This document shows positions 16,507 through 20,982 of a stretch of 50,483 nt of DNA, in pieces (within the stretch, counting starts at the first letter, position 1; every line of letters starts with the position of its first letter). Both the position numbers and the translations under genes were made by a program. The notes under the pieces are model-generated. The model had not been told where the DNA came from and did not search any database. It worked only from the letters and a program-made list of their open reading frames with translations. This DNA comes from Candidatus Roseilinea sp. (lineage in GTDB: Bacteria; Chloroflexota; Anaerolineae; J036; Brachytrichaceae): contig JANWYN010000075.1 in NCBI GenBank assembly GCA_025055235.1, forward strand, positions 1-50,483, written 5' to 3'.

Positions 16507-16636
16507 GGTGTGTGAATGGTCGGACAGGTGGCGATGGTGTTGCGTTTGGTGGGGTGAGTGTAGCGCGTTGGCCGCCTGCGCCTACCATGCGATTGGCGAT
16601 CGCCCACCCTGTCAACGCGGCTCATTCATGACCACT

Positions 16637-16844
16637 GGATGCCCGTCCTTTGATCCCGTGGCTTTTGGCTCGGCCACGAGCCAAAGGATCATGGGACCTC
16701 CGCGGGCATGACGATCCCAGCGCCCGGCGCTGAACCGCCGGGCTGAGAGGGCCGGGCGGGACATCTTCGCCAAGCTCAGCCCACGACGACCGCACGAACC
16801 GCACATCGCCCGCTGCTTTCAGCGCGGCTCATTCATGGCCGCGC
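16637..16844. repeat. ~200-bp duplicated block, copy A
   Basis: The block runs from GGATGCCCGTCCTTTGATCC to TCATTCATGGCCGCGC. It repeats at 16904-17104 with few changes: a short insertion (GATCAT) near 16687 and scattered substitutions. It holds internal palindromic parts such as CTTTTGGCTCGG/CCACGAGCCAAAGG. It has no coding sense. Confidence 0.8.
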
Positions 16845-16852
16845 CTCCCTAT

Positions 16853-16880
16853 CGTCATTCCCGCGTAAGCGGGAATCCAG
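16853..16880. repeat. TCATTCCCGCG..GGGAATCC dispersed palindromic repeat
   Basis: CATTCCCGCGTAAGCGGGAATCC is a widespread type of bacterial extragenic palindrome. A broken copy with an inserted GC-rich hairpin lies at 23503-23551. It sits between the two duplicated blocks. Confidence 0.65.
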
Positions 16881-16903
16881 AGTCCAGGTTCGCACTGAAT
16901 GCT

Positions 16904-17104
16904 GGATGCCCGTCCTTTGATCCCGTGGCCTTTGGCTCGGCCACGAGCCAAAGGGACCTCCGCGGGCATGACGATCGAAGCGCCCGGCGCTGAACCGCCG
17001 GGCTGAGAGGGCCGGGCGGGACATCTTCGCCAAGCTCAGCCCACGACGACCGCACGAACCGCGCATCGCCCGCTGCTTTCGGCGCGGCTCATTCATGGCC
17101 GCGC
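16904..17104. repeat. ~200-bp duplicated block, copy B
   Basis: This is the second copy of the block seen at 16637-16844, in the same direction. The high identity points to a recent duplication or to a dispersed element family. Confidence 0.8.
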
Positions 17105-17239: not shown

Positions 17240-17316
17240 CCAGGACGCCGGCCGCGCCATCTCTCAATCCTCGGCGGCGCAGCCGTAGCCGCGCCGCATT
17301 TCCGGTATCGCTGTCA

Positions 17317-17347
17317 GATGTCGGACTTCTTGAAGAAGTCCGACATC
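17317..17347. repeat. perfect palindrome next to the DGR template repeat
   Basis: Arms GATGTCGGACTTCTT and AAGAAGTCCGACATC are exact complements with one base between them. It lies 11 bases beyond the 3' end of the template repeat as transcribed. It may end the DGR RNA or give the template RNA a structured 3' end used for cDNA priming. Known DGRs have hairpins near the variable repeat, so its place here is notable. Confidence 0.7.
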
Positions 17348-17358
17348 TCGCGCGGAAA

Positions 17359-17481
17359 GATGTGGAGCGCACACACTCGAAAACCGTTGTTGTCGTTTCG
17401 GTTGTTCGGGTTGTTCCTGTCGCGGTTGGCGCAACGCACGTTGTCGGTGTTGTTGTTGAACGCGCCGCCGCGCAGCACGCG
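17359..17481 (-). other. DGR template repeat (TR)
   Basis: This 123-bp non-coding template matches the 3' end of the target gene at 19072-19200. On the minus strand it is rich in AAC: its conceptual translation reads GGAFNNNTDNVRC and RNNPNNRNDNNGF. Reading the two repeats base by base, 17 substitutions occur before a 6-nt length difference and every one falls at an adenine of the template strand. Both ends are identical (GCGTGCTGCGCGGCGGCGCG at one end, GGTTTTCGAGTGTGTGCGC at the other). That pattern is the mark of adenine-specific mutagenic retrohoming. It follows the Avd gene by 20 bases. Confidence 0.93.
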
Positions 17482-17501
17482 CGCTTCATCGGCCGGGCCC
17501 T

Positions 17502-17861
17502 TCATGACGAGCCTTGCGGCTCGGGCATGACGTTCAGCGAGGTCTTGAGCCACCCGCCCAGCAAGCGGCCGATCTCCGCCACCATGCTGGACGCGTGGCG
17601 ATATTGTGCAGGTGTGATCCACTGCCAGCGTTGGCACAAACGCAGATACAGCCGCACTTTGAGCAACTCGGCGTCGGCGGCGCGCAGCTTCGTCGCGCGT
17701 GGACCGCCGCGCTGGTTGTTCGCCTCGATGAGCAGTTCCTGGAACGCGAGCGCAGCACCCTGCAAGCGTTGCGTCACCACGAACCGCTGGCTGCGTGGGA
17801 AGTTGAGCGTGAGCGGCACCAGCCAAGACACGAAGTCGTAGGTGCGCGTGAAGATGGTCAT
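17502..17861 (-). CDS. avd: DGR accessory variability determinant (Avd)
   Basis: A 119-residue four-helix-bundle protein of the Avd/23S-rRNA-intervening-sequence family. It starts MTIFTRTYDFVSWLVPLTLN, then FPRSQRFVVTQRLQGAALAF and RLYLRLCQRWQWITPAQYRH, in line with known Avd, which is about 125 residues. The ATG at 17861 overlaps the reverse transcriptase stop in ATGA, and homologues begin here; a start at 17927 would add a low-complexity lead. Avd forms a positively charged pentamer that binds the reverse transcriptase and the template RNA. It lies between the reverse transcriptase and the template, a standard DGR order. Confidence 0.88.
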   Translation of the reverse strand: MTIFTRTYDFVSWLVPLTLNFPRSQRFVVTQRLQGAALAFQELLIEANNQRGGPRATKLRAADAELLKVRLYLRLCQRWQWITPAQYRHASSMVAEIGRLLGGWLKTSLNVMPEPQGSS

Positions 17862-18994
17862 CTCTGCGCCAGCGTTTTTCGCGGTCGTCCCTGTCTTGGC
17901 TTTCGCTTTCGTATCCTTCGTATCCATAGACCTTGCACCTCCAGGCCCAGCAGGCCACACTCAGCCAGCACCGCACGGCGCAAGCCGTAGGTGTCGCCAT
18001 AGCGGGCATGATTGATCCAGCCTCTGACCGAGGCATCTATCAGCGCCTGCGGCGCCGACTGCGCCAGCCGCCGTAACCTGCGGCGATACACCAGGCCCCT
18101 GCGGCGCTTCAAACGCCGGTGATCGGGGAAGACGATGAAACCGAGAAATGGGATGCCCTCGGCGACGGGGCGAGGATAGGCAGCGCCTGCGTGAATCGTC
18201 AGCCTGTAATGCGCGAGCCGCTCGATGATCGCGTCGCGCCAAGTCCAGAGCATTGCCTTGTCATCACTGAACAGCAGGAAGTCGTCCACGTAGCGCACAT
18301 AGCCGCGACATCCCAGCTCACGCTTGACGAATTGATCGAACGGATTCAAGTAGCAATTGCCCCACCACTGCGACGTCAGGTTGCCGATGGGCAATCCGCG
18401 TGGGCGGTTGATCGCGAATAAATCGTCGCCGGGGAAGTAAACCATCTCGTATTCCTCGGACAGTACGCCGCGCCCGCTCTCGAGGATGCGGTCAATCAGC
18501 CAGAGCACGTCGGTCGAGTGCAGCGTGGCCCGGAGCGTCTCGCGCAGGATGGCGTGGTCAATCGAGGGGAAGAACTGTTTCACGTCGCATTGCAACACAT
18601 ACGGATAGCGGCGCGCGAATTGCTGGCAGCGATCCAGCGCGCGATGCGTGCCCTTGCCGACTCGGTTGGCATAGCTATCGGGGATGAACTGCGCCTCCAT
18701 CAGCGGCGCGGTCACGTTGCAGAGGGCGTGATGCACGACCCGATCGCGAAACGGCGCTGCCGAGATCAGGCGACGCTTCGGCTCGTGGATGTAGAAGCTG
18801 TGATAGCGACCGGGTTGATAGGTCTTCTCGCGCAGCTCTTCCTGCAATTGCAACAGGTTATCCGCGAGCATGTATTCGAACGTTGCGGCGGGCGCACCCC
18901 CGCGTTTGCCGCGCGAGGCGCGCTCATAGGCCAGCCACAGGTTGTCCCAATCGCAGACCCGCGGAAACAGTTCGCGCTCAGGTTGGACGCTCAT
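17858..18994 (-). CDS. DGR reverse transcriptase
   Basis: A 378-residue reverse transcriptase that copies the template RNA while misincorporating at adenines. Motifs in order are RRLISAAPFRDRVVHHAL at 74-91, CDVKQFFPSID at 136-146, RPRGLPIGNLTSQ at 197-209, YVRYVDDFLLF at 232-242 and FLGFIVFP at 283-290. The SQ after GLPIGNLT is the DGR signature; retron and group II intron enzymes have QG there. There is no maturase or endonuclease domain. AGAGGG precedes the ATG by five bases. The gene follows the target gene by 68 bases and overlaps avd. The C-terminus is very basic, probably binding RNA. Confidence 0.94.
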   Translation of the reverse strand: MSVQPERELFPRVCDWDNLWLAYERASRGKRGGAPAATFEYMLADNLLQLQEELREKTYQPGRYHSFYIHEPKRRLISAAPFRDRVVHHALCNVTAPLMEAQFIPDSYANRVGKGTHRALDRCQQFARRYPYVLQCDVKQFFPSIDHAILRETLRATLHSTDVLWLIDRILESGRGVLSEEYEMVYFPGDDLFAINRPRGLPIGNLTSQWWGNCYLNPFDQFVKRELGCRGYVRYVDDFLLFSDDKAMLWTWRDAIIERLAHYRLTIHAGAAYPRPVAEGIPFLGFIVFPDHRRLKRRRGLVYRRRLRRLAQSAPQALIDASVRGWINHARYGDTYGLRRAVLAECGLLGLEVQGLWIRRIRKRKPRQGRPRKTLAQR

Positions 18995-19062
18995 TTACCC
19001 TCTGGAATTTCAAAAAATCGCTTTTCCCATGGCCAAAGTTACAGAGCACAGAGGAACAGAGG

Positions 19063-20766
19063 TCAGAGGCGGATGGGGAGCGCACACACTCGAAAACCGA
19101 AGTTGACGATCCGGCTGTTCGGGACGACCCTGCCGCGGAGGGCGCAACGCACGCCGTCGGAGCTGATGAGGTTGAGGAACGCGCCGCCGCGCAGCACGCG
19201 ATACGTGCCTTGCGAAGGGCCGGTCGGATTCCTGACCTCTTTCCCAGCTCGCCGCTCATATTCCTTCTCGTCATACCAATCCGCGCACCACTCCCACACG
19301 TTGCCCGCCATGTCGGCGCAGCCATAGGGGCTGTCGCCCAGCGGGCTGTAATCGCCGACCGGCGTCGTGTCCTTGACGTTCATGGCGAAGTTGCAATGGC
19401 GTGCCATGGGCGGATCGTCGCTCCACGGCCAGAGGCGGGCATGACGGCGGTGCTCGTCCCAGCGCGCAGCTTTCTCCCATTGCGCCTCGCTCGGCAGCCG
19501 GACGTCGCGCCCGCTCGCTTCGCTCAGCCACTTGCAGAACGCTGCCGCGTCATCCCAGCTCACGCACGTCACAGGATGATTCTGCTTCTGTGTCACGTCG
19601 CTCTTCGGCCCACGCGGGCGGTACCAGTTCGCGCCTTTCACATAGTCCCATGTGCTGCCCGTGTAGACGAATGCACTGCCCTCGCGCTCGGCCGTGGTCT
19701 CGTAGCCCGTGGCCTTCACGAAGGCGGCGAACTGGGCGACGGTGACCGGATACTTGCCGATGAGATACTCGTCCAGGTAAACCCAGTGCTGCGGGATCTC
19801 ATCGACCTGGGCAGCCTTGTCCTTGGCCTTGTCGCTGCCCATGAGGAACTCACCCGCCGGCACGCGCACCAGCTCCAGGCGGAAGCCCAGCTTCGGCAAC
19901 TCGATCAGCAACGCGTCAGCGGACGCCGTGGAACCCTCACGGGGCGTTCGCTCCGCTCCGGAGCCCTGTGAGGGCTCGACGATGACCTGTTCAATCTGAG
20001 CGTTCAGCTCTGCCCCTACCGCGCTCGCGCGCACCTGTAGCGCGCGCAGCAGCCGCTCGTAGCCGCCCGGCGCATACAAGTTCACCCCGTGCCAGTCGCC
20101 CACGCGGTCGGGGAAGTCGCACTCTTCCAACCGCAGGGGGATGATGAAGATGGCATCCTCCGCCAGCTTGTCGGCGATGTCCAGCGCGAACTCGATCTCG
20201 CGCTTCACGTAGCCGTCTTTCTTGACCGAGCGCTGCGACAGGCACACCAGGATCACATCGCTGGCGCGGATGGCTTTGGGGATCTCGACCTTCCACTTCT
20301 GGCCGGGCAGCAAATCCTCTTCGTCCAGCCAGGGCTGAACGCCCGAGGCCCGCAGCTTGGCGTATAGCTCGCGCACAGCAGGCTTGTCGTCGGAGGCGTG
20401 GCATAGAAAGACGCGCAGCGGTCCGGGCCGGCGGGCAGCGATCGATTCGTCGGCGCGCAGAGCCTCTGCTTTGGCCGAGGCGGTCTCGGCTGCAGGGGGC
20501 ACGGCCGGAGACGACGCATAGATCTCCGCCCAGGGCGCATTCGGGAACTCCTTCTTCGCCCGCGCGATCAATTCATCCAACCGGTCGCGGTTACCCAGAT
20601 ACGTGATTAGGTTGATGATCGCGATCGGGAGCTTGTCATTGGGGCCAACGACCGATTCGTAGTTCACGTTCAGGTCGGCGCAGAAGATGCGCAAGTCGTC
20701 CGACACCGCGCGTTCGAGCAGAATTTCGCGCAGCCGAACGAGGTTGACCCGCGGTTTGTCCCCCAT
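19063..20766 (-). CDS. DGR target: effector-associated domain-TIR-FGE (C-type lectin fold) protein
   Basis: A 567-residue three-part protein. Residues 1-85 form a small helical domain (LREILLERAVSDDLRIFCAD, then LITYLGNRDRLDELI) like the effector-associated domains of bacterial conflict proteins. Residues 116-245 form a TIR domain with RVFLCHASDDKPAVRELYAK, GVQPWLDEEDLLPGQKW and GYVKREIEFALDIA. Residues 290-567 form a formylglycine-generating-enzyme/sulfatase-modifying-factor fold with FRLELVRVPAGEFLMGSD, HPVTCVSWDDAAAFCKWL and NVWEWCADWYDE. The last 45 residues are the variable repeat (RVLRGGAF ... NFGFRVCALP). TIR domains often cleave NAD+; the variable fold would choose the ligand. ATG at 20766 is used because a promoter box ends just upstream. 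An immune sensor role is inferred. Confidence 0.92.
   Translation of the reverse strand: MGDKPRVNLVRLREILLERAVSDDLRIFCADLNVNYESVVGPNDKLPIAIINLITYLGNRDRLDELIARAKKEFPNAPWAEIYASSPAVPPAAETASAKAEALRADESIAARRPGPLRVFLCHASDDKPAVRELYAKLRASGVQPWLDEEDLLPGQKWKVEIPKAIRASDVILVCLSQRSVKKDGYVKREIEFALDIADKLAEDAIFIIPLRLEECDFPDRVGDWHGVNLYAPGGYERLLRALQVRASAVGAELNAQIEQVIVEPSQGSGAERTPREGSTASADALLIELPKLGFRLELVRVPAGEFLMGSDKAKDKAAQVDEIPQHWVYLDEYLIGKYPVTVAQFAAFVKATGYETTAEREGSAFVYTGSTWDYVKGANWYRPRGPKSDVTQKQNHPVTCVSWDDAAAFCKWLSEASGRDVRLPSEAQWEKAARWDEHRRHARLWPWSDDPPMARHCNFAMNVKDTTPVGDYSPLGDSPYGCADMAGNVWEWCADWYDEKEYERRAGKEVRNPTGPSQGTYRVLRGGAFLNLISSDGVRCALRGRVVPNSRIVNFGFRVCALPIRL
19072..19200 (-). other. DGR variable repeat (VR)
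   Basis: This is the 129-bp 3' end of the target gene, which differs from the template at adenine positions only over the part that can be aligned without gaps. It encodes FLNLISSDGVRCALRGRVVP and the residues up to FGFRVC, the ligand-facing loops of the C-type lectin fold. It is two codons longer than the template, where the template has an AAC repeat. The segment GGTTTTCGAGTGTGTGCGC at the 3' end is unchanged and probably marks where mutagenesis starts. Confidence 0.92.
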
Positions 20767-20774
20767 GGCGCTAT

Positions 20775-20802
20775 ATTTTGCCCAGTGGCGAATGGGTGTC
20801 AA
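20775..20802 (-). promoter_or_regulatory. predicted promoter of the DGR operon
   Basis: TTGACA at 20797-20802 and CAAAAT at 20775-20780, spaced by 16 bases, read toward the target gene. The start codon begins eight bases after the second box, so the mRNA would be almost leaderless; no ribosome site is seen. Confidence 0.45.
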
Positions 20803-20810
20803 ATGTGTAG

Positions 20811-20932
20811 TGTCGGGTGTCGGTGGTGTTGTTTTGGTGTCAATGGTGTCGTTAGTGTCAGTGGTGTCGCGGCACTGACGACACCTCTGACACTAACCGA
20901 CACCAACAACACTCCCAACACCCCCAACACCA
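20811..20932. repeat. GTGTC/GTTAG low-complexity inverted array
   Basis: The first half is built of words such as GGTGTC, GTGTTG and GTGTCAG; the second half, after GCGGCACTGACG, holds their complements such as GACACC, AACACT and CCAACACC. It can fold into a long imperfect hairpin. It lies between the divergent DGR and modA starts. Confidence 0.6.
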
Positions 20933-20982
20933 TCCTCCCTGAGGTATAGTCCGAACACTCACCGCCGTTTACGCTTCGACCC

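Follow-up and report, generated by a model that had tools for sequence, protein, structure and literature searches.

A chromosomal diversity-generating retroelement of Candidatus Roseilinea sp. with an EAD7-TIR-FGE target and a phased YTG array downstream of its variable repeat

The window analyzed here is a stretch of 50,483 nt from contig JANWYN010000075.1 of the Chloroflexota bacterium Candidatus Roseilinea sp. (assembly GCA_025055235.1), and positions 17317-20802 on its minus strand are a complete chromosomal diversity-generating retroelement (DGR). Both this kind of element and the type of its target are known already. Taken as a whole, the data are best explained by a DGR that diversifies the FGE domain of a sensor protein which also carries effector-associated domain 7 (EAD7) and a TIR domain, with ligand-triggered dormancy or cell death as the likely outcome, and with a phased array of YTG words downstream of the variable repeat (VR) probably taking part in target-site choice. 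We give this reading a probability of roughly 0.8. In addition, comparison with other DGRs suggests a cis element that may be undescribed. The components are arranged on the minus strand in the order target, reverse transcriptase (RT), Avd and template repeat (TR):

19063..20766, minus strand: DGR target gene, EAD7-TIR-FGE, 567 aa from the ATG at 20766 (a TTG at 20802 would give 579 aa)
19072..19200, minus strand: VR, 129 nt, at the C-terminal end of the target
19166..19171, minus strand: 6 nt (two codons) present in the VR only, lacking in the TR and common to the related species G006
17858..18994, minus strand: DGR reverse transcriptase, 378 aa (RVT_1, E 1e-14)
17502..17861, minus strand: Avd accessory protein, 119 aa (NCBIfam NF033474, 100 bits with a cut-off of 80)
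17359..17481, minus strand: TR, 123 nt with 33 adenines, starting 20 nt after Avd

A first-pass annotation, made from the letters alone, had described a complete DGR with intact parts in a single orientation, including an RT with the DGR SQ motif and YVDD, an Avd-type protein overlapping it in ATGA, and an adenine-rich repeat with a matching copy at the 3' end of a gene with an FGE/C-type-lectin fold. These statements were borne out: all components are present, with the sequence features that define DGRs, and the uninterrupted reading frames of the RT, Avd and target lie on the minus strand. Both motifs, which we take to be those named SQ and YVDD, are found in the RT alignment, where the catalytic motif is intact, and the ATG of Avd overlaps the RT stop codon as ATGA. 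The closest solved relative of the RT is 8ub7_A, named 'Reverse transcriptase' (E 1.5e-49), and the best solved matches of the RT and Avd are Bordetella phage proteins (8ub7 and 4dwl). Models of group II intron, retron and DRT reverse transcriptases also scored, all under the NCBIfam cut-offs, and a non-DGR identity was rejected. Most of the named RT relatives (14 of 19) are from Chloroflexota, and 18 of 20 loci around related RTs (L044-L063) contain an A-biased TR/VR pair, 13 of these without any non-A mismatch and five (L045, L046, L047, L050 and L053) with 1 to 8; no A-biased pair was found at L058 and L063. TR and target VR lie on opposite strands in four loci (L049, L051, L061 and L062), and a single TR has targets on both strands in L053 and L102. 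The DGR of Bordetella phage BPP-1 (brt, Avd/Bbp7 and mtd; L150; 8ub7, 4dwl) has an RT and Avd homologous to those of the window and is likewise A-only, with 17 of 17 TR/VR mismatches at A, but differs in its phage tail target and in the order target-Avd-TR-RT.

The TR and VR of the window align over 123 columns with 20 mismatches, all 20 at a template A. Thus 20 of the 33 template adenines are changed against none of the 90 other bases (hypergeometric P of 1.1e-14 for such an A-only pattern by chance), and apart from one 6-nt insertion the two repeats differ at template A only. The adenines occupy codon positions 1-2 in 31 of 33 cases and are spread across 21 codons, none of which could mutate into a stop codon, and the VR ends 6 nt before the stop codon of the target. 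The placement of the 6-nt insertion is ambiguous within an AAC-derived tract. The TR could have lost two AAC units, but as both codons are missing in 10 of 12 other aligned proteins, an insertion in the VR is the simpler reading, although not proven.

The EAD7 and TIR domains next to the FGE domain of the target had been overlooked in the first-pass annotation:

20542..20733, minus strand: EAD7 of the target (Pfam PF19960)
20074..20412, minus strand: TIR domain of the target (TIR_2, E 4.1e-25)
19087..19875, minus strand: FGE-sulfatase / C-type-lectin-fold domain of the target (E 5e-65)

Against a cut-off of 32 bits, EAD7 falls short in hmmscan (28.2 bits) and passes in the genome search (32.8 bits). 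Solved relatives of the TIR domain are 8qlo and 3h16 (E about 5e-5). A structure model of the target (mean pLDDT 60.6, pTM 0.50) served for fold naming only; with its FGE domain, Foldseek returned human FGE as best match (E 2.5e-22) and the DGR protein TvpA (2y3c) at E 3.2e-13. EgtB, SenA, PvdO, OvoA and GldK were rejected as identities of the target since all model scores fell under the cut-offs, and no NTPase domain (STAND, MoxR) was detected in it at E 0.1. The two copper-binding cysteines of FGE presumably map to the VR stretch, and no cysteine precedes the VRC motif in the VRs of the window or G006. In ten other DGR targets from RT relatives, FGE was present in all ten, with NACHT (three), TIR (two), protein kinase (one) and Mtd (one) as partner domains. 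The target with the Mtd second domain (L056, 5881-7410) is from a genome of the same family (G023) and is probably located in a prophage.

Conflict-system targets of this type are already described (PMC10907252 and PMC8195603). The former deals with conflict sensors diversified by DGRs in multicellular bacteria (Thiohalocapsa and its relatives). As in the window, a CLec/FGE sensor contains the VR and is joined to, or located next to, TIR, NTPase, kinase, peptidase or EAD parts; the DGR 2 target joins CHAT, TIR and CLec, and filamentous Chloroflexota are among the named hosts. The EAD-bearing targets there (DGR 6, EAD8) carry a STAND NTPase, whereas the window has EAD7 and TIR on the sensor and no NTPase domain was detected. 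Similarly, in the STAND-FGS systems with EAD1/2/7/8 (PMC8195603), EAD7 or TIR is N-terminal in FGS-domain proteins, often with DGR parts, as in the window, but the EAD or TIR forms the N-terminus of an NTPase-FGS protein. The window adds to this known group a compact case with EAD7, TIR and a diversified FGE domain in one chain.

Among nine genomes of the genus searched, only that of the window and G006 have the full-length target; the G006 ortholog is 83% identical and its cassette has the same flanking genes. The first-pass annotation had named a lack of strain-level variation at template adenines as evidence against the element. The comparison across these two species of one genus did not refute it: the VRs differed at 19 of the 32 sites with A in both TRs, compared to 3 of 91 other sites, and all three non-A differences were mirrored in the respective TRs. 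TR and VR have changed in concert between the two species. Elsewhere in the target, 247 of 1563 nt (16%) are different. Since the VR is held to each species' own TR outside the adenines and is free at the adenine sites, retrohoming probably took place after the split in at least one lineage. The RT of G006 (L055, 8256-8700) has an internal deletion of the catalytic core, covering about residues 45 to 312 by protein match and 41 to 319 by DNA match, whereas target, Avd and TR are kept; the engine is lost and the sensor retained.

Several observations weigh against the reading favoured here. The window and G006 agree in the 6-nt VR island and in the codons next to it (Leu-Ile-Ser), so that this stretch has seemingly not been overwritten since the split and full-length homing may be rare or a thing of the past. 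Loss of the RT core makes the element dispensable in G006, and neither the window nor G006 has a GC hairpin or cruciform within 110 nt after the VR. Finally, no partner gene for EAD7 was seen within the cassette. The un-overwritten island and codons, the missing hairpin and the G006 deletion would all fit a decaying DGR that worked after the species split and is now silent, the target persisting as a fixed sensor. We consider decay possible but somewhat unlikely, as the RT, Avd and target frames of the window are open with conserved RT motifs, and as divergence at the non-A sites of the VR follows that of the TR and is lower than in the remainder of the gene.

A fixed gene of the same architecture is found elsewhere in this genome (3.99 Mb in 151 contigs). 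Searching it with the TR returned, at E below 1e-9, the TR itself, the VR and C54:21168-21272 (72%). The C54 gene encodes an EAD7-TIR-FGE paralog, which has an ortholog in each of three other genomes of the genus, and was rejected as a remote DGR target because its differences from the TR are not A-only and its C-terminus is invariant: in all four genomes the last 41 residues, including the VR equivalent, are identical although the DNA differs. No TCTG word occurs in the 75 nt past the stop codon in any of the four. The genome thus carries one design in two versions, diversified and fixed, and the genus offers two natural experiments: an orthologous cassette whose VR went on changing once the species had separated, and a frozen paralog with the domain set of the target. 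The frozen paralogs are found in L037 (7153-8709, minus strand), L114, L115 and L116, in three of which a 326-aa EAD7 protein is encoded a few kb off. EAD7 occurs at eight places in the genome of the window, seven of them over the cut-off including the target; one of the others sits on an nSTAND1-WD40 protein, and the eighth match, partial and below the cut-off, is on a caspase-like protein (C14 peptidase).

The proposed target-site signal is located directly after the VR:

19034..19067, minus strand: phased array just past the VR, TCTG TCTG TCTG TCTG TTTG, with starts 7, 8, 7 and 8 nt apart

The array consists of YTG words at 7-8 nt steps, five in the window, which follow the VR and not the TR; the first unit overlaps the stop codon of the target. 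Comparison with the array of G006 shows no difference in the 20 nt of the cores and four in the 18 nt of the spacers. In order to compare other DGRs, we assembled set A (33 VRs of 31 loci, including the window and G006), set B (records of phages and plasmids, the majority being cyanobacterial plasmids), set C (other Chloroflexota) and set D (viral contigs, for which the best 80 of 594 relatives were kept). By descent, these sets are not independent of each other. No TR/VR pair was found in 5/40, 18/40 and 9/80 of the RT loci, and a G[FAHS][RH] motif was required close to the end of the VR, which removed 2/33, 3/23 and 4/25 pairs in A, B and C; set D kept 59 of 72 pairs after the motif requirement and removal of duplicates.

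The first measure, at least three TCTG within 75 nt, had its threshold set on set A and was then applied to B, C and D. It was reached after 24 of 33 VRs and none of 33 TRs in set A, where the TCTG count omitted four duplicate loci and one tandem repeat of L046, and after 2/20, 6/21 and 38/59 VRs in B, C and D, compared to 0/20, 0/21 and 0/58 TRs. Ordinary open reading frame (ORF) ends passed in 3 of 333 cases for set A, two being DGR targets themselves (L046 and L050), and in 2 of 177 for set C. The signal is strand-biased, with 0.15 CAGA against 3.9 TCTG per VR in set A. The second measure, chains of [CT]TG at 7-8 nt steps, was picked after all sets were known. Chains of at least four units follow 13/31, 1/20, 6/21 and 40/59 VRs in A to D and no TR (0/31, 0/20, 0/21 and 0/58; 0/130 overall), and were observed at 6/500 and 2/288 ordinary ORF ends (8/788 overall). 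The commonest chain lengths are 2 and 5 in set A (11 each) and 4 and 5 in set D (22 and 15). Autocorrelation after the VR peaks at lags 7-8, with lag-7 z values of 10.1, 4.7, 6.4 and 12.9 in A to D, and shows no peak after the TR (-2.9, 0.1, -1.3 and 2.1). A unit-agnostic chain test at p<0.05 was less specific, detecting 41 of 72 VRs, 1 of 72 TRs (A, B and C) and 46 of 500 control ORF ends, and in set D 21 of 59 VRs and 1 of 58 TRs. In the cyanobacterial plasmids L151-L153 and L155, a pyrimidine array of the CTTT or CCCT type stands after the VR; its period is similar at 7-8 nt, and its unit is different from TCTG.

Discrimination between VR and TR by DGRs has so far been explained through the initiation of mutagenic homing (IMH) site and the hairpin. 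BPP-1 requires a hairpin downstream of the VR, and GRNA-loop hairpins are known at this position (PMC3240598). This hairpin/cruciform element is, like the array, a cis element directly downstream of the VR, and where both occur the array sits between the VR and the hairpin. In BPP-1, the 75 nt past the VR lack TCTG and a GC hairpin (loop GAAA) lies 19 nt downstream of the VR, the reverse of the situation in the window. By the 110-nt measure, a GC hairpin follows 20/31, 2/20 and 6/21 VRs in A, B and C, and is therefore not universal. A laxer measure in set D found hairpins after 35 of 59 VRs, but also after 15 of 59 TRs; the loop was GATA in 25 of the 35. In these viral contigs the array often ends at a GRNA-loop hairpin, and 20 of 28 hairpins that lie past a chain of at least three units begin 1-3 nt downstream of its last unit. 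The window and G006 have the array and no GC hairpin, yet their TR and VR have changed in concert; if the array is read as proposed, the window would be a natural case of an array working without a hairpin.

It is an evenly balanced proposition that a YTG run (mostly TCTG, usually of 4-5 units in viral contigs) at 7-8 nt steps is a conserved and possibly undescribed second DGR cis element, placed before the hairpin if there is one, absent at the TR and marking the recipient. An array that is confined to the recipient side, strand-specific and in register is likely a site read by a repeated surface. The 9 PDB entries of DGR particles contain 45 Avd chains and 9 RT chains, a ratio of five to one, so an Avd pentamer may read the units singly; that Avd is the reader is a guess. 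Should the element be real, the recipient-side repeat register would be an added target-recognition element, a route to remote VRs and a hint at target-site needs. The word TCTG has no match in the main text of PMC3240598, and a phased array is mentioned neither in the available parts of PMC3240598, PMC10907252, PMC8144416, PMC7517822 and PMC4891356 nor in the titles and abstract starts among the matches listed, which does not establish its absence from print.

The array could alternatively be a generic heptameric repeat of these genomes that follows the VR by chance. The pattern TCTGN{3,4}TCTGN{3,4}TCTG has 222 matches in the genome of the window against 69 for a reversed control, and is also frequent in G001 (107 vs 5) and G008 (136 vs 6), in neither of which an RT was found in the search. 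Ordinary ORF ends of the class loci show a lag-7 signal (match 0.286, z 6.2, n 271), a small effect which counts against the array, and in set B a chain of four follows only 1 of 20 VRs. We nevertheless find a chance origin unlikely. The lag-7 match rises to 0.370 after the VRs of set A, ordinary ORF ends of phylum loci give a z of -0.8, and the chains of at least four units after VRs of sets A, C and D stand against 0 of 110 TRs in the same sets and the low count at ORF ends. Moreover, the VR of G004 (L049), a genome nearly without generic arrays, is followed by five TCTG, unevenly spaced at 7, 9, 15 and 14 nt, and the frozen FGE paralogs lack the word at this position. Generic TCTG heptad arrays are many in the genome of the window, G001, G006 and G008, with almost none in G003, G004, G005 and G007; given their presence in some genomes, a local repeat may have been co-opted by the DGR.

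Going by the DGR family, the diversified EAD7-TIR-FGE sensor would arise as follows. From the TR RNA, the RT and Avd would make a cDNA in which template adenines are paired with random bases. This cDNA would take the place of the VR at the target's 3' end, the site being chosen probably with the help of the YTG array. The variable C-type-lectin-fold FGE domain most likely senses a changing ligand, probably from an invader, and ligand binding would switch on the TIR domain and/or recruit EAD7 partners, leading to dormancy or cell death. TIR domains are known as NADases; that of the target is known by sequence only. The diversified FGE domain could instead serve attachment or cell-cell recognition rather than defence, as DGR targets outside conflict systems exist and one of the ten relatives (L056) carries an Mtd-like domain, of the phage receptor-binding kind. 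We regard this role as doubtful, because inspection of the target sequence by eye showed neither a signal peptide nor a transmembrane segment, and because the fusion with TIR and EAD7, as with NACHT or TIR in relatives, suggests a sensor inside the cell. Finally, although the TR lies within an open reading frame (17314-18036) resembling the C-terminus of the target, the idea that it is a pseudogene fragment and no template can be dismissed, as a decaying copy would differ at all bases, not at 0 of 90 non-A positions, and as TR and VR have three species-specific changes in common.

The surroundings of the cassette contain further repeats:

16635..17104, plus strand: duplicated repeat block adjoining the cassette (152 nt at 97% and 53 nt at 98%)
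17317..17347, no strand assigned: perfect 15-bp palindrome, 11 nt past the TR

The description of the cassette as lying in a repeat-rich accessory region is supported by this block, and by G002 and G004, where the flanking genes enclose no cassette. For G001, G003, G005, G007 and G008 the fetched stretch matched the aminotransferase side only, so the cassette site could not be judged. The one predicted promoter of the first-pass annotation was not supported, with one consensus match compared to a mean of 0.6 in shuffled sequences. The palindrome is possibly the end of the TR RNA; no second match to its arm was found in the genome of the window with up to one mismatch allowed, and it has no counterpart after the TR of G006. 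At the cassette site of G002 there is, judged by eye, what we take to be a PadR-like gene. Upstream of the target, 20805-20940 forms a long imperfect inverted repeat of TGTCGGTGT-like words, which with its flanks folds at about -104 kcal/mol, and on the matching side G006 has a gene that, by eye, is PadR-like.

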